Below, in pieces: positions 1,534 to 15,222 of a stretch of DNA of 64,000 bases (the stretch's first letter is position 1; each line of letters begins with the position of its first letter). The position numbers and the translations under genes were made by a program. The stretch spans positions 2,542,001-2,606,000 of the forward strand of contig NZ_JAFV01000001.1 of NCBI RefSeq assembly GCF_000526315.1, in the 5' to 3' direction. The notes under the pieces are model-generated. The model was not told where the DNA came from. It worked only from the letters and a program-made list of their open reading frames with translations, and searched no databases. This stretch comes from Methylopila sp. 73B. GTDB lineage: Bacteria; Pseudomonadota; Alphaproteobacteria; Rhizobiales; Methylopilaceae.

Positions 1534-1932
1534 CTACACACCGCGGACCACCGTCTCGAACGGCTTGCGCAGCAGGTCGCTGTCGCGGAAGCGGCCATGG
1601 CGGTTCTTCGAGAAGGTCGAGTGGTCCGGCACGTCGCCATCGAGGCCAAGCCGGCAGAACCAGCGATAGGCGAGGTTGAGGTGAACCTCCTCGCACAGCC
1701 GTCGCTCCGAGCGGACGCCGAAGCAGTAGCCGACGAGCAGCATCCGGATCAGGAGTTCCGGGTCGATCGAAGGACGACCGGTCGAGCTATAGAACGGGGC
1801 CAGCTCCCGACGCACCTCCGACAGGTCCACGAACCGATCGATCGCCCTTAGCAGGTGGTCCTGCGGCACATGCCGCTCAAGCGAGAACTCATAGAACAGC
1901 GCCGTCTGGTCGACCTGCCGCTCGCCCATCAT
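1534..1932 (-). pseudogene. Truncated IS1182-like transposase (N-terminal part)
   Basis: The 132-residue frame is the N-terminal DUF772-type domain of an IS1182/IS5-like DDE transposase: FSLERHVPQDHLLRAIDRFV, then GRPSIDPELLIRMLLVGYC, SERRLCEEVHLNLAYRWFC and DHSTFSKNRHGRF. Full transposases of this group are about 450 residues, so roughly 70% including the whole catalytic DDE region is missing. The frame stops just after the first domain and the following bases do not continue the family in another frame. It is therefore a dead remnant. Two adjacent ATG codons (1932 and 1929) could start it. A probable element end lies upstream at 1994-2015. Confidence 0.8.
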
Positions 1933-2234
1933 CGCCGCAGCCCTCCGCTCATGGAGCTGAGTGAATCAGCGGCCGCGCCTCGCTTCAACGACGGAGTTTT
2001 TCAACGGAATCCGCCAAGAGCGGTGATTGCGCTCCGCGGCCTAGATCGACGATTTCACCAATCGCTCTACTGCGCGACAGTCTGGTCGCAAAAAGCGCAA
2101 GGCGGTGGCCTTCGACGCCAGGAACTGCATCTTCTGCACCGTTTCTGCACGAGAAGGCACAGGAACGGCGCCGCGTTCCCATTTGCGCTGCATCGCCGCC
2201 CCGCATCAAGGGAGCTCCACGAAGGAGCCGCGTC
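1933..2234. other. Gap between IS remnant and DUF4173 gene
   Basis: This stretch holds the likely transposase leader, a putative insertion-sequence end at 1994-2015, and the upstream region of the DUF4173 gene. A purine-rich ribosome site (agggag / gaaggag, about 2207-2227) precedes the ATG at 2235. No gene is supported here. Confidence 0.5.
1994..2015. repeat. Putative insertion-sequence terminal end
   Basis: The motif gagtttttcaacggaat lies about 60 bases upstream of the transposase fragment's start. Sequences of the gagtttttcaac type are common at ends of IS1182-like elements. The matching opposite end is not visible because that side of the element is lost, so this call is from resemblance only. 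Confidence 0.4.
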
Positions 2235-6043: not shown

Positions 6044-6135
6044 TCGCCAAGGGCAGACCGCGAACAGACGCCACGCTCGTTGTGCGTCGATAGCGGAAGC
6101 TGGCCTATATGCGGAAGGCGGACATCGTCCGTCGA

Positions 6136-6822
6136 TCAACTGACCAGCCGATATCCTACGCCTGCCTCAGTCAACAGATGGCTCGGACGCGAGGGGTCGG
6201 GCTCCAGTTTCACCCTCAGCTGCCGGATGTAGACGCGGAGCGACGTCTGGTCGCCGTCGTCCTGTCCCCAGACGGCGCGAAACAGGTGGCGATGGGTCAG
6301 CACCTTGCCGGCATGGACCACGAGTTCCTGCAGGATCGCGAATTCCTTCGGCGACAGCTTCACCTCCGCGCCGTCTCGGGTGACGACATGACGGGCGAGA
6401 TCGACGACAAGCGGCCCCGCTCGAAAGACTGGCTCGGCGCCGCGGTCGGCGAGGCGGTGGCGCAGAGCGGCGCGCATGCGCGCCATCAGCTCGTCAGTCC
6501 CGAAGGGCTTTGTGACGTAGTCGTCCGCCCCGAGATCGAGCGCCGCGACCTTCGCCGCCTCCTCGCCGCGAGCGGAGAGCACCACGATCGGCACGGGGCC
6601 CTTCGCGCGGATCTCGCGGATGAGATCGAGCCCGTCCATGTCGGGCAGGCCGAGATCGAGCAGGACGAGCTCAGGCGCGACATGGCGCATGAGCCGCAGC
6701 GCCTCGGCCCCGGTCTCCGCCTCCAGCGTCCGGTAGTCGTTCACCCCCAGCGTCGCTTTCAGGAAGCGCCGGATCGGCGCCTCGTCGTCGACGATCAGAA
6801 CGGTGATCGCGCTCGAGACCAT
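6136..6822 (-). CDS. kdpE: KdpE response regulator of the Kdp system
   Basis: This 228-residue OmpR-type regulator has a receiver domain (acidic D12-D13, phosphoacceptor D56 in LVLLDLGLPDMDG, conserved lysine in YVTKPFG) and a winged-helix domain ending in LLTEAGVGYRLVS. It activates kdpFABC transcription when phosphorylated by KdpD under potassium limitation. The ATG overlaps the kdpD stop by one base (tgATG), so the two are translationally coupled. It is the last gene of a minus-strand kdp operon. Identity rests on both domain content and adjacency to kdpD. Confidence 0.95.
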   Translation of the reverse strand: MVSSAITVLIVDDEAPIRRFLKATLGVNDYRTLEAETGAEALRLMRHVAPELVLLDLGLPDMDGLDLIREIRAKGPVPIVVLSARGEEAAKVAALDLGADDYVTKPFGTDELMARMRAALRHRLADRGAEPVFRAGPLVVDLARHVVTRDGAEVKLSPKEFAILQELVVHAGKVLTHRHLFRAVWGQDDGDQTSLRVYIRQLRVKLEPDPSRPSHLLTEAGVGYRLVS

Positions 6823-9512
6823 CAGGCGGCCTCTCCTTCCCGCGCCGGCGTCGCCGCCCGCGGGAGCCGCAGTTCGAAGCGCGCGCCATGGCCGCCGGCG
6901 ACGTTCTCAGCAGTGATCGAGCCGCCCATCGCCTCCACGAAGCCCTTGGCGATGCCGAGGCCGAGACCGGCGCCCGTCGTCTTCCGGTCGCCCTGCCCGG
7001 AGCGGTAGAGCCGATCGAACACTTTTTGAAGATCGTCCGCGGGGATGCCGGGGCCGTCGTCCGTCACGCTCAGCAGCACGTGATCGGCCTCGGCGCGCGC
7101 CTCGATCGTCACCATCGCCCCCGCTGGCGTGTACTTGCCGGCGTTCTCCAGCAGATTGACCAGCGCGTGCTCGAGCAGCACCGGATCGCCGCTGATCAGA
7201 AGCGTCGCCTCGGGAAGCGCGACGGTCACGCGGCGGTCGCCGAGCAAAGGCGACGCGCGCCTCAGCGCTCCTCCGATGACGTCTTCGACGTCGAGCGTTT
7301 CGGCCTTCGCCGCCACGCCGCCGGCGTCGAGCTTCACGACGTCCAGAAGATTGGCGACGAAGCGGTCCAGCCGCTCGGTCTCGCCTTGCGCGCTCGCCAG
7401 CATGTCGTCGCGCGTGAGGTCATCGTAGCGGGCGCCATAGCTCCGCAGGCTGGTGATCACGCCCATGATGGTGGCGAGCGGCGTCTTGAAGTCGTGGCTA
7501 ACGGAGGCGAGCAGGGCGCCCCGCAGGCGTTCGGCCTCAGCCTCCAGGCGCGCGGCGTCGACGTCGGCGCCGAGGCGGATGCGCTCCAGCGCGACCGCGG
7601 TCTGGTCGACGAGCGCGTCGAGCAGGCGACGCTCCCCGGGCGTCAGCACCGGGCCCGCCGAGCGTCGCGCGACGCCGACGACGCCGAGCTTGCCGCGGCT
7701 CGTCTTCAGCGGAAGGAACAGCCGCGTGACGCCCGGCAGGGTCGCGGCGCCGCGGCCCGTCGGCGCGTCGTGCTCGTAGGCCCAGGTCGCGGCGGCGAGT
7801 TCGGCGGCGTCGAGCTGGTCTTCGGGCGGATAGGCGCCGCCGACGTCGAGGCCGTTTGCGGTCTCGGTGAGGAGCACGACGTCGGCCTTCAGCATCAGCG
7901 CCACCTGGTGGGCGGCGGCCCAGAGCAGATCGTCCTCATCGCCGACGGCCGCGAGCTTGCGCGAAAACGCGTAGAGCTCGGCCGTGACCCGCGCCTGATC
8001 GCGCGCCGCGAGCGTCTGCGCCCTCACGCGCGCCGCGACGGAACTTGCGAGCACCGCGGTCAGCGAGAAAAACAGGATGGCGACGACGTTCGAAGGATCG
8101 TCGACGGTCAGCGAGAAGCGCGGATCGGTGAAGAAGAAATTGTAGGCGAGGGCGGCGAAGAACGACGCGGCGAGCGACGGGCCGAGGCCGTAGCGCACCG
8201 CGATAAGCAGCACCGCGGGCACGAACACCAGCGAGATGTTCGGCAGATCGATCGTGAGGTCGACGGCGAGACCGGCGAGGGCGGCGCCGAGCGACGCTGC
8301 GGCCGCGGCGAGGTAGCCGCGCAGGCGCGGCGGCCGCGGGACGGGGCGGGAGGCGACCGATTTCGGCGGAACGGTTTCTCCGTCTCCCGCCATCACCTGC
8401 ACGGCGATCGGCCCGGAGCGTTCGAGCAGGTTCGCGACGACTGATCCGTGACGGAACGCGAACCAGCGCGAGCGCCGCGCCTTGCCGAGAAGGATGGTCG
8501 TGACGTTCCGGCTCCGGGCGAAAGCGAGCAGGTCCTCCGCGACGTCGGCGCCGCCGGGGAGAGAAAGCGATTCCGCGCCAAGCGTCTCCGCGAGCCGAAG
8601 CGTGTCGGCGACGCGATCCCGTTCGGCGTCGGACAGATGGGCGTGGCGCGGGGTCTCGATCGTCACGCAGAGCCAGTCCGCGCGGGCCCGGTCTGCGAGC
8701 CGCCGGCCGGCGCGCACGAGCGCGGCAGCTCCGGGCTGCTCGTCGATCGCGACCAGGACGCGCTCGACCGCCGGCCACGGCCCTTCGATGGCGTTGGCGC
8801 GCATGTGCTCGCGCATGTCGGCGTCGACGCGTTCGGCGGTGCGCCGGAGGGCGAGCTCGCGAAGCGCGGTCAGATTGCCGGGCTGGAAGAAGTGCCGAAC
8901 CGCGCGTTCCGCCTGCTCGCGTACATAGATCTTGCCGGTCGCGAGGCGCTTTCGCAGAACGTCGGGCGTGACGTCGACGACTTCGACCTCGTCGGCGAGG
9001 TCGAAGACGCTGTCCGGCACCGTCTCGCGGACCCTCACGCGCGTGATGCGGGCGACGATGTCGTTGAGGCTTTCGAGATGCTGGACGTTGAGGGTCGTGA
9101 AGACGTCGATCCCGGCGGCCAAAAACTCCTCGACGTCCTGGTGACGCTTCGGGTGTCGCGAGCCGGGCGCATTGGTGTGGGCGAGCTCGTCGACGACGAC
9201 CAGTTTCGGCGCGCGCTTCAGCACGGCGTCGACGTCCATTTCCTGCAGCGTCCGGCCGCGATAGGCGACTTCGACCCTCCGGATCGCTTCGAGACCGCTA
9301 ACGAGCGCCTCCGTCTCCGCTCGGCCGTGAGTCTCGACGACGCCAATCACCACATCGACGCCCTCGGCATGCGCCGCGCGGGCGGCCGACAGCATCTCGT
9401 AGGTCTTGCCGACGCCCGGGGCCGCCCCGAAGAAGATCTTCAGGCGGCCCCGTCCTTCACGCGAAGGGGCGTCGAAAAAGCGTTCGGGCGAAGAGCGTGG
9501 ATCGGCGGCCAT
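6822..9512 (-). CDS. kdpD: KdpD potassium-limitation sensor kinase
   Basis: The 896-residue protein has the full KdpD architecture. An N-terminal KdpD domain carries a Walker A motif GAAPGVGKT (residues 29-37). It is followed by a universal-stress-protein-like domain (about 250-370), four close membrane segments (about 395-500, DUF4118), a GAF domain, a HisKA domain with H673 in SVSHDFKTPLATIMG, and an ATPase domain with GAGLGLGIAKG. It senses low potassium or turgor and controls KdpE phosphorylation in the inner membrane. It starts 36 bases after kdpC. Length and the histidine position match the E. coli protein closely. Confidence 0.96.
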   Translation of the reverse strand: MAADPRSSPERFFDAPSREGRGRLKIFFGAAPGVGKTYEMLSAARAAHAEGVDVVIGVVETHGRAETEALVSGLEAIRRVEVAYRGRTLQEMDVDAVLKRAPKLVVVDELAHTNAPGSRHPKRHQDVEEFLAAGIDVFTTLNVQHLESLNDIVARITRVRVRETVPDSVFDLADEVEVVDVTPDVLRKRLATGKIYVREQAERAVRHFFQPGNLTALRELALRRTAERVDADMREHMRANAIEGPWPAVERVLVAIDEQPGAAALVRAGRRLADRARADWLCVTIETPRHAHLSDAERDRVADTLRLAETLGAESLSLPGGADVAEDLLAFARSRNVTTILLGKARRSRWFAFRHGSVVANLLERSGPIAVQVMAGDGETVPPKSVASRPVPRPPRLRGYLAAAAASLGAALAGLAVDLTIDLPNISLVFVPAVLLIAVRYGLGPSLAASFFAALAYNFFFTDPRFSLTVDDPSNVVAILFFSLTAVLASSVAARVRAQTLAARDQARVTAELYAFSRKLAAVGDEDDLLWAAAHQVALMLKADVVLLTETANGLDVGGAYPPEDQLDAAELAAATWAYEHDAPTGRGAATLPGVTRLFLPLKTSRGKLGVVGVARRSAGPVLTPGERRLLDALVDQTAVALERIRLGADVDAARLEAEAERLRGALLASVSHDFKTPLATIMGVITSLRSYGARYDDLTRDDMLASAQGETERLDRFVANLLDVVKLDAGGVAAKAETLDVEDVIGGALRRASPLLGDRRVTVALPEATLLISGDPVLLEHALVNLLENAGKYTPAGAMVTIEARAEADHVLLSVTDDGPGIPADDLQKVFDRLYRSGQGDRKTTGAGLGLGIAKGFVEAMGGSITAENVAGGHGARFELRLPRAATPAREGEAA

Positions 9513-9548
9513 TTCCGGCGGATTATAGATCGCCGAACAGGCTCGGCG

Positions 9549-10124
9549 TCACGGTCTCTTCAGCGCATCGAGCGCTATGTTCAACGCGAGCACGTTCGTC
9601 CTCGGCTCGCCGATAAGGCCGAACAGCCGCCCCTGGACGCTTGCTTCGATCAGGCGTCGGACGTCGTCTTCGGGCACTCCGCGCTCGCGCGCGACGCGGC
9701 CCACCTGCGCGTAGGCCGCGGCCGGCGAGATGTCTGGATCGAGTCCGGAACCCGACGCAGTGACGAGATCGGCCGGAACCGGTCCGTCGATTGCGTTTTC
9801 GGCCTTCGCCTTGGCGACGTCGCCCTTGATGCGGTCGGCGAGCGCCTTCGAGGTCGGCCCGAGATTGGAGCCGGAGGAGGACGCCGCGTCATAGCTGTTT
9901 TGGCCCGCGGCCGAGGGGCGGCCGTGGAAATAACGCGGGCTGGCGAAGGACTGGCCGATGAGGCTTGAGCCGACGACGCGGCCGTCCTGCTCGATCATCG
10001 AACCGGAGGCCCTGGCAGGCATGGCGAGTTGCGCGACCGATGTGATCCCGAGCGGATAGACGACGCCCGTCACGAGAGTGAGGAGGGCGAGCAGCGTCAG
10101 CGCGGGGCGGAGATGGCGGAGCAT
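9549..10124 (-). CDS. kdpC: KdpC subunit of the K+-transporting ATPase
   Basis: The 191-residue protein has one N-terminal membrane helix (LLALLTLVTGVVYPLGI) and the KdpC soluble domain with LIGQSF, YFHGRPSAA, SGSNLGPTS, DLVTASGSGLDPDISPAAA and a C-terminal VNxLALNIALD-like segment. It assists ATP binding by KdpB in the membrane complex. The ATG at 10124 starts 17 bases after the kdpB stop. A longer upstream frame exists but overlaps kdpB and is rejected. Confidence 0.95.
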   Translation of the reverse strand: MLRHLRPALTLLALLTLVTGVVYPLGITSVAQLAMPARASGSMIEQDGRVVGSSLIGQSFASPRYFHGRPSAAGQNSYDAASSSGSNLGPTSKALADRIKGDVAKAKAENAIDGPVPADLVTASGSGLDPDISPAAAYAQVGRVARERGVPEDDVRRLIEASVQGRLFGLIGEPRTNVLALNIALDALKRP

Positions 10125-10141
10125 GTCGATGGTTTCCTTCT

Positions 10142-12181
10142 TCACGCTAGGCCGACGGAGGTGATCGCGAGATCGACGAGCTTGATCCCGATAAAGGGCG
10201 CGCTGAGGCCGCCGAGGCCGTAGACGAGGAGGTTGCGGCGCAGCAGCGCCGCGGCGCTCGACGGCGTGTAGGAGACGCCCTTCAGCGCGAGCGGCACCAG
10301 CGCGACGATGATCAGCGCGTTGAAGATGATCGCGGAAAGGATCGCGCTCTGGGGGCTCGCGAGCCCCATGACGTTGAGCGCGCCAAGCGGCGGGTAGAGC
10401 GCGACGAACATCGCCGGGATGATTGCGAAATACTTCGCGACGTCGTTCGCGACCGAGAAGGTCGTCAGCGCGCCGCGCGTCATCAGCAGCTGCTTGCCGA
10501 TGCCCACGATCTCGATGAGCTTGGTCGGGTCGCTGTCGAGGTCGACCATGTTGCCGGCCTCGCGCGCCGCGACCGTGCCGGTCTGCATGGCGACGCCGAC
10601 GTCGGCCTGCGCGAGCGCCGGGGCGTCGTTGGTGCCGTCGCCGCACATCGCGACGAGCTTGCCGCCCTCCTGCTCCCTCCGGATGAGCGCGAGCTTCGCC
10701 TCCGGCGTCGCTTCCGCGAGGAAATCGTCGACGCCCGCCTCCGCGGCGATGGCGGCCGCGGTCATGGGGTTGTCGCCGGTGATCATCACCGTGCGGATGC
10801 CCATCGCGCGAAGCTCGCTGAAGCGCTCGCGGATGCCGCCTTTAACGATGTCCTTGAGGTGGACGACGCCGAGAGCCTTCGCGTGGGTCGACACGACGAG
10901 CGGCGTGCCGCCCTCGCGCGCCACGCGTTCGACGATGGCGCCGAGCTCGTCCGGGATCTGACCGCCATGGGCCTTCACATGCTTTATGACGGCGTCGGCG
11001 GCGCCCTTGCGGATCTTCGTCGCGCCGATGTCGACGCCGCTCATGCGGGTCTGCGCCGAAAACGGGATGAAGGTCGCCTCGAGCGGCCCCATCTCGCGGC
11101 CGCGCAGGCCGTGCGCCGCCTTGGCGAGGACGACGATCGAGCGGCCCTCCGGCGTCTCGTCGGAGAGGCTCGCGAGCTGAGCGGCGTCGGCGAGCTCGCT
11201 TGCGCGAACGCCTGGCAGGGGCAGAAACTCCGCCGCCTGCCGGTTGCCGAGCGTGATCGTGCCGGTCTTGTCGAGCAGCAGCACGTCGACGTCGCCCGCG
11301 GCCTCGACCGCACGGCCCGACATGGCTAGCACGTTGAAACGAACGAGCCGGTTCATGCCGGCGATGCCGATCGCCGACAGAAGCCCGCCGATCGTCGTCG
11401 GGATCAGCGTCACGAACAGCGCGACCAGCACGACGATCGGGACCACGCCTCCGGAATAGGCCGCGAAGGATGGGATGGTCGCGACCGCAAGCACGAAGAT
11501 CAGCGAGAGGCCCGCGAGCAGGATGGTGAGCGCGATCTCGTTCGGCGTCTTGGCGCGCTCGGCGCCTTCCACCAGCGCGATCATGCGGTCGAGGAAACTC
11601 GAACCGCTCGCGGCCGTAATCCGGACCGTGATGCTGTCCGACAGCACCTTCGTGCCGCCGGTGACGGCCGAGCGATCGCCGCCGCTCTCGCGGATCACCG
11701 GCGCGCTTTCGCCCGTGATCGCGCTCTCATCGACGGTCGCGACGCCTTCGAGGACCTCGCCGTCGCCCGGGATCAGGTCGCCGGGCTCGACGAGGACGAG
11801 GTCGCCGACCTTCAGCGCGGGCGCCGCGATCTCCTCGTAATCTCCGCCCTGGCCGACAAGGCGTTTCGCCATCGTGTCCGAGCGGGTGCGGCGAAGAGCG
11901 TCGGCCTGGGCCTTGCCGCGCCCCTCCGCGATCGCTTCGGAAAAGGTAGCGAAATAGACCGTCGCCCAGAGCCAGAAGGCGAGCTGGCCGGAGAAACCGG
12001 CGGAGGGCGAGCGGACCGCAAGGTCGCGCGCGAAGAGAACGACGGCGACAAGCGCCACGACCTCAACCGCGAACATCACGGGATTGCGGATGAGCTGGCG
12101 GGGATCGAGCTTTCGCAGGGCGGAGCCCAGCGCCGGAACGATCAGTGCGGGATCGAGCAGGGAGCGAGGTTGTGCTGACAT
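10142..12181 (-). CDS. kdpB: KdpB, P-type ATPase subunit
   Basis: The 679-residue P-type ATPase carries the phosphorylation motif DKTGTITLG with the aspartate near residue 303, the actuator TGES motif (AITGESAPV), the hinge motif [19 protein letters not shown], and membrane segments at both ends. It hydrolyses ATP to drive potassium uptake through KdpA. The ATG at 12181 gives a normal family length; the much longer open frame upstream reads through kdpA in the wrong frame and is not real. A 167-base gap separates it from kdpA, longer than at other junctions in this operon. Confidence 0.96.
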
Positions 12182-12348
12182 GTATCTGGCCGGTTGAGCG
12201 TCGCATCTGTCGGCGGCGCGCTGAGCGCGCGGGCGACGATTGCAAACAGTGTGATCAGGACGAGCAGAAGGACGATCCATGCGGCGCGCCGGCGTCTGAG
12301 CGCGCCGCGTAAAAGACCCGAAAAGAGCGCCGGTCGGAGAGCATGGCC

Positions 12349-14058
12349 TTACCGCGTATCGCCGGCGGCGGTCGCAAAGGCGTCGGCGACCGGGCCGAGA
12401 GTGAGCGCCGGGAAGTAGGTGAGGCCGCCCACGATGAGGACGACGCCGACCAGCAGCCCGACGAACAGCGGTCCATGCGTCGGAAAGGTGCCGGCGGAGG
12501 GCGGGACCTTGCTCTTGGCCGCAAGCGATCCCGCCACCGCCAGCATCGGGACGATCAGCGCGAACCGGCCGATCATCATCCCGATTGCGAGCGTCACGTT
12601 CCAGAACGGGCTGTTCGCGGTCAGGCCGGCGAAGGCCGACCCGTTGTTCGCCGCAGCCGAGGTCGTCGCGTAGAGCGCTTCGGAAAAGCCGTGCGGCCCG
12701 CTTTCCTGCAGGCCGGCGAGGCCGACGGGAACGACGAGGGCGACGGCGAGCGCGAGCAGCGTCGCCGCGGGCGAGCACAGCAGCGCCAGCATGGTGAGCT
12801 TCACCTCGCGGCCTTCGATCTTCTTGCCGACATATTCCGGCGTGCGCCCGACCATCAGCCCGGCCACGAAGACGGCGACGACCGCGAACAGCAGGATGCC
12901 GTAGAGCCCGGCCCCCACGCCGCCGACGATCACCTCGCCGAGCTGCATGTTGACCATCGGGATGAGGCCGCCAATCGCCGAGAAGGAGTCGTGCATCGCG
13001 TTGACGGCGCCGCACGAGGCCGCGGTGGTGAGCACCGCGAACAGCGCCGACAGGGCGATCCCGAAGCGGACCTCTTTGCCTTCCATATTGCCGGCCGAGG
13101 GATCGAGGCCGATTGCGGCGTGGATCGGGTTGGCGCCGGCCTCCGCCCAGTAGACCAGCCCGACGCCCGCGAGGAACAGGGTCCCCATCGCGCCGAGGAT
13201 CGCCCATCCCTGCCGCTCGTCGCCGACCATGCGGCCGAATACATTGGTGAGCGCCGCGCCGATCGCGAAGATCGAGACCATCTGGATGAGGTTGGAAAGC
13301 GCCGACGGGTTCTCGAACGGGTGCGCCGAATTGGCGTTGAAGAAGCCACCGCCATTGGTGCCGAGCATCTTGATCGCGAGCTGGCTCGCGACCGGCCCTA
13401 GCGCGATGGTCTGCTCCGCCCCTTCGAGCGTCTTCGCGGTGAGATAGGGTTGGAGCGTCTGCGGCACTCCGAGGGCGACGTAGATCAGCGCGAATACGAT
13501 GCACGCGGGCAGCAGCACGTAGAGGACCGATCGGGTCAGGTCCACCCAGAAATTGCCGATCCCCTTCGCCGAGCGCCGCGCAAAGCCGCGTATCAGGGCG
13601 ACCGCAAGCGCCATGCCGGTCGCGGCCGATAGGAAGTTCTGGACCGTCAGCGCCCACATTTGCGAGCCGTAGGACAGCGTAGCTTCGCCGCCATAGGACT
13701 GCCAGTCCGTGTTGGTGACGAAGGAGATCGCTGTGTTGAGGGCGAGGTCCGGCGTCACGCCCGCAAAGCCCTGCGGATTGAGCGGCAAAACGCCCTGAAG
13801 GCGCAGAACGCCATAGACCGCAAGGAAGCCTGCGACGTGGAACGCCAGCATGGCGAGCGCATAGCTCGCCCAGCGTTGCTCAGCGTCGGGCCTGACGCCC
13901 GCAAGCCTGTAGAAGCCACGCTCGACCGGCGCGAGAGCGGGGTAAAGGAAGGTGCGCTCGCCGGCGTAGAGGCGGAAGAGAAAGCCGCCAAGCGGGCGGA
14001 CGAGCGCAAGGACGATCGCGCAGAACACTGCGATCTGCATCCAGCCATTGATGGTCAT
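12349..14058 (-). CDS. kdpA: KdpA, potassium-channel-like subunit
   Basis: The 569-residue, roughly ten-helix membrane protein matches KdpA over its full length. Visible filter-region motifs include [14 protein letters not shown] near residue 110 and [20 protein letters not shown] near residue 230. It binds and conducts potassium within the KdpFABC complex. It lies between kdpF (28 bases upstream) and kdpB. A hydrophobic segment without a start codon continues in the same frame after its stop. Confidence 0.96.
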
Positions 14059-14086
14059 CGTGTTGGGGTCCGGAAGGTCGAGCGGC

Positions 14087-14194
14087 TCAGAACCGCTCCG
14101 GCCGCAGCAGCGCTGCGAGGAAGACCGCGGTCGCGGCGAGCGCGGCCGCTCCGCCGAGAACGACGTCGAGAACGGGAAGTCCGAGAAGAATCAT
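14087..14194 (-). CDS. kdpF: KdpF small membrane subunit
   Basis: A 35-residue frame reading [15 protein letters not shown], then an alanine-rich membrane helix, and ending in LLRPERF. The RPERF ending and single helix are characteristic of KdpF, which stabilises the KdpFABC complex. It starts with ATG at 14194 and ends 28 bases before kdpA. It is too short to be found by length-based gene calling, but its position and ending make the call firm. Confidence 0.88.
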
Positions 14195-14199
14195 CGCGC

Positions 14200-14283
14200 T
14201 CAAAGCCTTTCACAGGCGAGCGCATAGGCCGCCAGCGCGGAGAACCCCGCGATCCCGCCGGCGAGCATCAACAAATCCATCAT
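14200..14283 (-). CDS. Micro-ORF upstream of kdpF (27-residue hydrophobic peptide)
   Basis: The frame reads MMDLLMLAGGIAGFSALAAYALACERL. It is a single membrane helix with a polar CERL end, much like KdpF in layout but distinct from it. Its stop lies five bases before the kdpF ATG, on the same strand, so it would be the first gene of the kdp operon. Two adjacent ATGs (14283, 14280) are possible starts. I recall similar unnamed peptides in front of kdpF in other proteobacteria, but this is memory, not a search. Function is unknown. Confidence 0.6.
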   Translation of the reverse strand: MMDLLMLAGGIAGFSALAAYALACERL

Positions 14284-14814
14284 GTGCAAGGCTCCACACG
14301 GCGACGTCGCCATGCGGATGAGATGCAGCCTCGCCCCGTTGGAATTTAAGAGGGATCGATGCGGCGGCGCGTTAAGAACGTGTTGGAACGGCGTCTCGCG
14401 AGTAGCCGCCGCCGGGAGTGCCAACCTAGCCGTCGCCCACACGTCAAGTAGGCACCGACGCTCCCGTAACCAGACGTTCCAAGTTCGGCGAAGGGTCAGA
14501 AGCCGAACCAGCACCTTTCGTCGTGGCTAATAGAAAATCCCGACGACTAGCCTCGCCTCCAGCCTGCGACTTTAGCGACTTTAGGCTTCAAAACGGCTGG
14601 CAAACTGGGCACCCCGGGGGCGGCGACCCCGCGGACGTTCGGATCGTCGTACGGTCCCTAACGCGTCGGCCGGGCCCCTGCCCCGCCGCATCGAGGTCGG
14701 CGCAGCTGCCCTTCATCCGCGCTCGCGGTAGATCACGGCGACCTCCCTGCCGTCATGCTCCGGCGATCACCGGAAGCCTGTCGCAGCCGTCCCGCACCCG
14801 CCGGCTATCCTGCG
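14284..14814. other. kdp upstream region and decayed sequence
   Basis: The 14284-14520 part should contain the kdp promoter and KdpE site, though I cannot assign exact boxes. From about 14520 to 14814 no coherent protein is visible. Frames here are short and out of register with the recombinase tail that begins near 14815, so this is probably what is left of the upstream part of that recombinase or its element. Confidence 0.45.
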
Positions 14815-15189
14815 ACGGTCAAGCTCCGCGTGGACGATCTTACTGCCGAACGCCACCGCTGCCGTCAGGACCTCGGTTCGGCTGACGACGACGCTTCGCC
14901 GATCACACACCACCCCGCCGCACTCGAAACCTACGCCCGCGATCTGGGCGCGCTTGCCAAGGGTTTGGGCGAAGCGTTCGCAGACGGCGACGCCGCTGCG
15001 GTCGACGCGTTCCGATCGCTAGTCGACCACGTCGTTGTGGAGCCGTCGAAGGCGGGAGACAGGGTGTCCGTTACGGTGCAAGGCAGGCTGGCGCTGCTGC
15101 TTGATCACGACCTGTTCCCGAGCGTCGCAGTGCCGGGGGGATCGGTGGTAGCGGAGGAGGGACTCGAACCCCCGACACGCGGATTATGA
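14755..15189 (+). pseudogene. Serine-recombinase C-terminal remnant
   Basis: The recognisable part (from about 14815) reads HHPAALETYARDLGALAKGL, then a segment around FRSLVDHVVVEPSKAGDRVSV and TVQGRLALLLDHDLFP. This is the usual C-terminal end of large serine recombinases of phage and integrative elements. The resolvase catalytic domain and zinc-ribbon region, normally 350 or more residues, are absent. The last residues (VVAEEGLEPPTRGL) are the antisense translation of a tRNA gene's 3' part, so the frame ends inside the tRNA. This is the expected layout for an integrase next to its attachment site in a tRNA. Confidence 0.65.
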
Positions 15190-15222
15190 TTCCGCTGCTC
15201 TAACCAGCTGAGCTACTCCGCC
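15146..15222 (-). tRNA. tRNA-Met (anticodon CAT)
   Basis: On the minus strand a full cloverleaf can be drawn: a seven-base acceptor stem (GGCGGAG with CTCCGCT, first pair G-U), D arm GCTC/GAGC, anticodon stem GCGGA/TCCGC with loop ATCATAA (anticodon CAT), variable loop GTGTC, T arm with the TTCGAGT loop, and an encoded CCA end. It is 77 bases including CCA. The CAT anticodon fits elongator Met; a lysidine-modified Ile-tRNA cannot be excluded by anticodon alone. The end of a recombinase remnant overlaps its 3' half on the other strand. Confidence 0.93.

Follow-up and report, generated by a model that had tools for sequence, protein, structure and literature searches.

The 64,000-nucleotide stretch of the Methylopila sp. 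73B genome analysed here (the window) most probably holds the decayed attL of an alphaproteobacterial element family whose large serine recombinase (LSR) inserts into tRNA-Met and carries attP in its own 3′ end; judging by sequence comparison, we put the probability of this reading at roughly 0.83. In the proposed mechanism attP would sit within the 3′ end of the LSR gene, and exchange would take place at the centre of TGGTAGCGG-RRGA, the antisense of the acceptor/T-stem junction. On the element side ∼11 bp from the end of the tRNA would remain, by which the tRNA would be restored, and the LSR frame would continue into the host tRNA and stop at the anticodon loop. Integration would drop the element-encoded tail (17–28 residues), which would move to the far end of the element, attR, and would add ∼10 residues translated from the antisense strand of the host tRNA gene. 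The window genome would have lost the front of the gene, the remaining element and attR. The features of the junction in the window are as follows.

14755–15189, plus strand: open frame, its end a recombinase remnant, with the 3′ end inside the tRNA-Met gene
14809–15157, plus strand: putative element-derived C-terminal remnant of the LSR (tblastn; from about residue 423 of a 534-residue stop-to-stop frame)
15146–15222, minus strand: tRNA-Met(CAT) gene with encoded CCA, the proposed attachment target (ARAGORN; Rfam tRNA at 15149–15222)
15146–15158, plus strand: putative shared attL core TGGTAGCGGAGGA, of which 12–14 bp are common to integrated and non-tRNA copies in relatives
15156–15157: predicted crossover dinucleotide, placed at the midpoint of the GGTAGCGG-nnnn-CCGCTACC repeat found in relatives
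15158–15189, plus strand: proposed host-tRNA-encoded end of the recombinase frame, including the stop

The tRNA-Met(CAT) gene is the only tRNA gene that ARAGORN finds in the window, and the frame overlaps it by 44 nt. Thirteen sense codons lie wholly within the tRNA (15148–15186; VAEEGLEPPTRGL), antisense to the 3′ strand of the acceptor stem, the T arm, the variable loop, the 3′ strand of the anticodon stem and part of the anticodon loop; they are followed by the stop TGA at 15187–15189, antisense to T33-C34-A35. This bears out the sequence-only reading, according to which the end of a recombinase frame runs antisense to the 3′ half of the tRNA, including the T arm. The homology to LSRs starts only at ∼14809–14827 (tblastn), and the ATG at 14755 is therefore probably not the real start of the frame. 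What remains is approximately the last 112 residues of the LSR, matching residues 423–534 in an intact relative whose stop-to-stop frame has 534 residues (tblastn); the catalytic part had been described as gone, and no catalytic domain is indeed left. Up to E = 1, neither Pfam nor PHROGs gives a match for the 144-residue frame at 14755–15189; with 0 Pfam families it shows none of the Resolvase, Recombinase and zinc-ribbon domains, and it is by homology an LSR remnant, not a member of the LSR class. Searching the whole genome with the frame gave no second copy of the fragment, the three further matches having E values of 0.06 or worse. An open frame arising by chance in GC-rich DNA and running across a tRNA would also lack Pfam and PHROGs matches, and there are numerous spurious frames nearby. 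The LSR homology outside the tRNA part and the identical junction in relatives (both by tblastn) refute this explanation, to which we assign a negligible probability.

Among 61 genomes (that of the window and 60 relatives), ten contain a match to the window frame (tblastn). Intact LSRs are found within the same genus in Hansschlegelia beijingensis (G002) and Chenggangzhangella methanolivorans (G007), where they end in VAEEGLEPPTRGL within their own tRNA-Met. These two, together with the LSRs of pWSM1497, Rhizobium phage RR1-A and locus L132, carry PF00239, PF07508 and PF13408 in a single protein; the LSR of G046 is broken. Scanning genome contigs with an alignment of five proteins gave 267 relatives, of which the best 80 were used. 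At 60 of these best 80 of 267 the stop TGA lies at the identical base, which, counting from the first base of the tRNA-Met 3′ end, is exactly 43 bases further on, in agreement with the earlier suggestion that the recombinase ends at its attachment site in the tRNA. Two of the same 80 loci read tRNA-Met in another frame, one has its stop just ahead of tRNA-Met and 15, which count against the attL reading, have an LSR end without an overlapping tRNA; of the 15, L138 and L159 still have this same tail, read from a displaced tRNA half, and contig ends truncate two more. On this comparison, the LSR–tRNA overlap is a standing feature of the family. At two of the best 80 loci (L125 and L141) the tRNA at the LSR end is tRNA-Thr, not tRNA-Met, and targets have therefore changed within the family.

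The sequence-only reading also took the junction for the scar of an old integration or a deletion. As far as the window genome is concerned an old remnant still fits, there being neither a second copy nor an att partner that we could find; the overlap in itself is no mark of a scar, as the intact relatives terminate at the same base. Recurrence of the junction in distant relatives, which had been named as grounds for rejecting integration, was observed, and is compatible with integration because repeated insertion at one site explains it. A repeat of the tRNA end, whose absence had likewise been named as grounds for rejection, was sought across the window genome and not found. Since the sites of these serine recombinases share only ∼12 bp, a long repeat is not expected, and its absence from the window genome therefore does not refute integration.

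The position of the crossover was approached through loci at which the LSR is not followed by a tRNA. Their DNA follows that of integrated copies through TGGTAGCGG and about three further bases and then departs from the tRNA sequence, often entering CGCTACC to give GGTAGCGG-nnnn-CCGCTACC. In six pairs of integrated and non-tRNA copies, with upstream identities of 93, 92, 90, 89, 82 and 71%, the members have 13, 12, 14, 13, 13 and 12 bp in common, respectively, counted from TGG, and beyond this they agree at 8–13 of 40 bases. The 71–93% range leaves out the L223/L224 pair (97.9%), in which the tRNA resemblance of L223 breaks off, three pairs that involve internal sites and three pairs of greater divergence (67–69% upstream; 12, 9 and 12 bp shared). 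Alignment of the copies shows that there are two kinds of junction, with 12–14 bp in common, and two kinds of tail. Because the non-tRNA copies follow the integrated ones for 12–14 bp and then diverge, we place the crossover near 15156–15157, inside the LSR gene and inside TGGTAGCGGRRG. The centre of the repeat, bases 11–12, corresponds to window positions 15156–15157, the antisense of C66/C65, and it is from this that we infer the exact dinucleotide; the LSR itself is the presumed agent.

Other copies of the family show the same two forms. A loose sorting rule divides 130 LSR-linked TGGTAGC junctions into 103 on tRNA and 27 others; it counts RR1-A, and also L223, among the former, and with RR1-A moved across 102 and 28 come closer. 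The 28 include the internal sites L122, L131 and L134, the contig cuts L128 and L263 and the duplicate places L166/L199 and L180/L189. G006 holds the closest relative of the window remnant, which sits at a displaced tRNA half on contig C4; a second copy in that genome, on C2, lies away from the tRNA, and its similarity to the window ends at 15157. RR1-A, an isolated phage, has the non-tRNA form, its LSR gene ending in AEMLGGRVVAGERFEQSPQIILGRFVA, and the prophage contigs L230 and L232 end in AEMLGGRVVAEEGFEPPTQGL on tRNA-Met sequence. More than 4.8 kb past the non-tRNA junction in L240, L275 and L277 contain no tRNA according to ARAGORN. In the relatives the C-termini differ between integrated and non-integrated copies, as is asked of a gene that spans its own attP. 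A point against the attL reading is that some non-tRNA junctions sit in tandem arrays and not in free DNA: in G092 and G094 the left flank of the far-end site is another LSR end, from which we conclude that the elements are in tandem. At L122, L131 and L134, near 7579–7636, the LSR frame contains an element-type tail (VAGDRYS.KPTF), with another core and then the tRNA tail behind it, an arrangement reminiscent of an older attachment site that became part of the protein.

An alternative is that the crossover lies at the anticodon loop and that the element brought the whole 3′ half of the tRNA, in which case the tail would be the element's own. It was first suggested by direct repeats of the tRNA 3′ half of 45–51 bp in G006, G007 and G017, and the displaced tRNA half at the LSR end in L138 and L159 also speaks for it, but a second 25-bp copy of the tRNA end is absent in 42 of 50 LSR genomes (50 of 65 chosen loci), and the repeat in G006 encloses a tyrosine-integrase element (PF00589). 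As the paired copies part after 12–14 bp, this placement was dropped, and we regard it as very improbable. The G006 element (L048 1903–14462) is 12.5 kb long, is bounded by the tRNA repeat and has the whole tRNA on one side and, on the other, the displaced tRNA half that bears the LSR remnant; two types of integrase have taken turns on one tRNA in this genome.

With the crossover at the acceptor/T-stem junction, the far end of an element would carry the core followed by element sequence, and the pattern TGGTAGCGG-N(2–8)-CTACC occurs in 18 of the 50 LSR genomes at 27 places (two of which are one place on both strands). The total length is 21 bp in 24 of the 27 candidates, and at many of them the sequence to the right is similar while that to the left is unlike. 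A control with the reversed pattern gave more matches than the pattern itself in most LSR genomes, so the counts alone are no evidence; the argument rests on the fixed length and on the right-side similarity with left-side difference. The pattern is missing in 32 of the 50 genomes, and it is also missing in H. beijingensis despite its intact LSR; both findings count against the attL reading. In six genomes a far end shares contig and strand with the LSR–tRNA junction, at distances of 17.7 kb (G007), 18.3 kb (G046), 39 kb (G092), 58 and 81 kb (G094), 62 kb (G096) and 126 kb (G104). The G007 element of 17.7 kb has a 1040-residue frame (L354 4954–8076), which we take to resemble a phage tail tape-measure protein, and it may be a prophage remnant. 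Palindrome scanning of viral contigs returned 73 stretches, none of them among the 27 non-tRNA LSR junctions; we take these to be mostly chance or ends without an LSR.

A far end with the tRNA-end core, by which a tRNA-targeting island is recognized, was found in relatives and not in the window genome. There, attR was sought with a 25-mer (up to three mismatches) and with an exact palindrome across the whole genome, with an ungapped 51-mer against 50 kb and with a mismatched palindrome against 100 kb and the window, the last two with shuffles, and nothing above chance was obtained; for this reason the window alone cannot prove an element. Empty sites were looked for in 14 genomes of the genus Stappia, where the 400-bp flank matched two others over 250 bp with no tRNA end fitting the pattern, and in the family of G046, which comprises only two genomes; neither search brought one to light. 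In G005 2.5 kb separate the shared backbone from the tRNA and hold a duplicated segment, so that the locus is not a clean empty site. The segment (L047 10000–11000) lies beside the tRNA, is at least 60 bases long, contains 12 bp from the start of the tRNA end and occurs twice, ∼880 bp apart; it is possibly the leftover of tandem elements.

The distance between shared backbone and tRNA is ∼38 kb in the window, 31 kb in G009 and 36 kb in G011; these differing lengths, with that of G005, and differing contents mark this tRNA-Met as a hot spot for insertion within the genus. The kdp block of the window (6084–14498) is 97% identical to G006:C7:356–8781, whereas the DNA adjoining the tRNA is only 77–78% identical between the window genome and G006, and the kdp block of G009 is syntenic at 80%; sequence identity suggests a recent transfer or replacement of the block. 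Window positions 1544–2023 match one place each in several genomes of this genus at 89–94% identity and are probably part of an insertion sequence.

The element-encoded tails extend for 17–28 residues after the core, counted from the shared V-A in the LSR frame, and fall into three groups. An IRY motif is present in 12 sequences (pN/pS 0.33), 11 of which reach the stop after 28 residues; six have a 23-residue tail (pN/pS 0.55) and four, two of which come from one genome, a 17-residue tail (pN/pS 0.11). The groups for pN/pS were picked by motif and length, leaving out L181 (26 residues, with the motif of the 23-residue group). Variable third positions are in excess, with P values of 0.004 for the IRY group, 0.076 for the 23-residue group and 0.024 for the 17-residue group, which are indications only, the sequences being related. 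We give even odds to the tail exchange being real but neutral, attP merely overlapping the gene end and any short tail sufficing. The use of other tRNA frames (two of the best 80 of 267 loci, G015 and several viral contigs) and the great differences in element tails from group to group fit neutrality; the keeping of frame and stop within groups, with mostly silent variation as measured by the above pN/pS and third-position values, argues against it. Conservation of the tail could also stem from DNA recognition by the enzyme.

Endings like that of the ssrA tag (-LAA, -VIAA and -RFAA) are present in part of the family. An -AA ending is found in six of 18 attR tails selected from the 27 far-end places, all six within one related group, and in four of 21 non-tRNA LSR tails; the groups of tails with FVC and with CRG/CCG-like endings are without it. 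A tentative and rather doubtful proposal is that the host tRNA acts as a switch, in which an ssrA-like degron tail on the free LSR would be swapped for a signal-free end read from the tRNA, and the lifetime or direction of the enzyme would report integration.

Among known integrases, that of Rhizobium phage RR1-A (NC_021560, YP_008130182.1) and those of H. beijingensis and C. methanolivorans are homologous LSRs with the same TGGTAGCGG core at the gene end. They are intact, whereas the window has the C-terminal end only, and the tail of RR1-A is non-tRNA whereas that in the window is tRNA-encoded. Serine recombinases that insert into tRNA genes are described for Paracoccus phage Pami6 (PMC6536676), for Ralstonia phage RSM, in tRNA-Ser (PMC3816273), and for the AICEs of Mycobacterium, in tRNA-Leu (PMC3218068). 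RSM differs from the window family in having a small serine recombinase and attP between genes (PMC3816273); for Pami6 and the AICEs the accessible text gives no account of attP lying within the integrase gene, and the likeness drawn here is one of description. Such insertion into tRNA genes has been called rare (PMC3218068) and, in 2014, not known (PMC4383910), and the main text of a large LSR survey, in the part available, does not mention tRNA. Genes that extend across attP are described for Mx8, SSV and the archaeal 'suicidal' integrases (PMC4383910, PMC8371274). These are tyrosine recombinases and the window family consists of LSRs; moreover, the archaeal integrases are split through the protein, whereas only the end changes here. 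In integration-dependent immunity of mycobacteriophages, a C-terminus encoded across attP is altered by integration, and the viral form of the repressor bears an ssrA-like tag that integration removes (PMC8092301, PMC4557955); there it is the repressor that is altered, alongside tyrosine integrases, and here the LSR itself. LSRs in tRNA genes and attP within an integrase gene are each known; in the open-licence literature, as far as its texts were accessible, we found neither the combination nor any LSR gene whose 3′ end contains attP.

The stump in the window is ordinary debris, a dead example that points to an unusual design. One LSR family ends in tRNA-Met at dozens of alphaproteobacterial loci, and with a shared site of only ∼12 bp, it would tend to escape methods that look for displaced pieces of tRNA. 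An LSR annotated from a prophage would have a C-terminus unlike that of the free element. In this family it can be tested directly whether exchanging the C-terminus controls a serine integrase; if the proposed switch is true, the lifetime or direction of the enzyme would report the integration state of the element across widespread integrases of phages and other elements.
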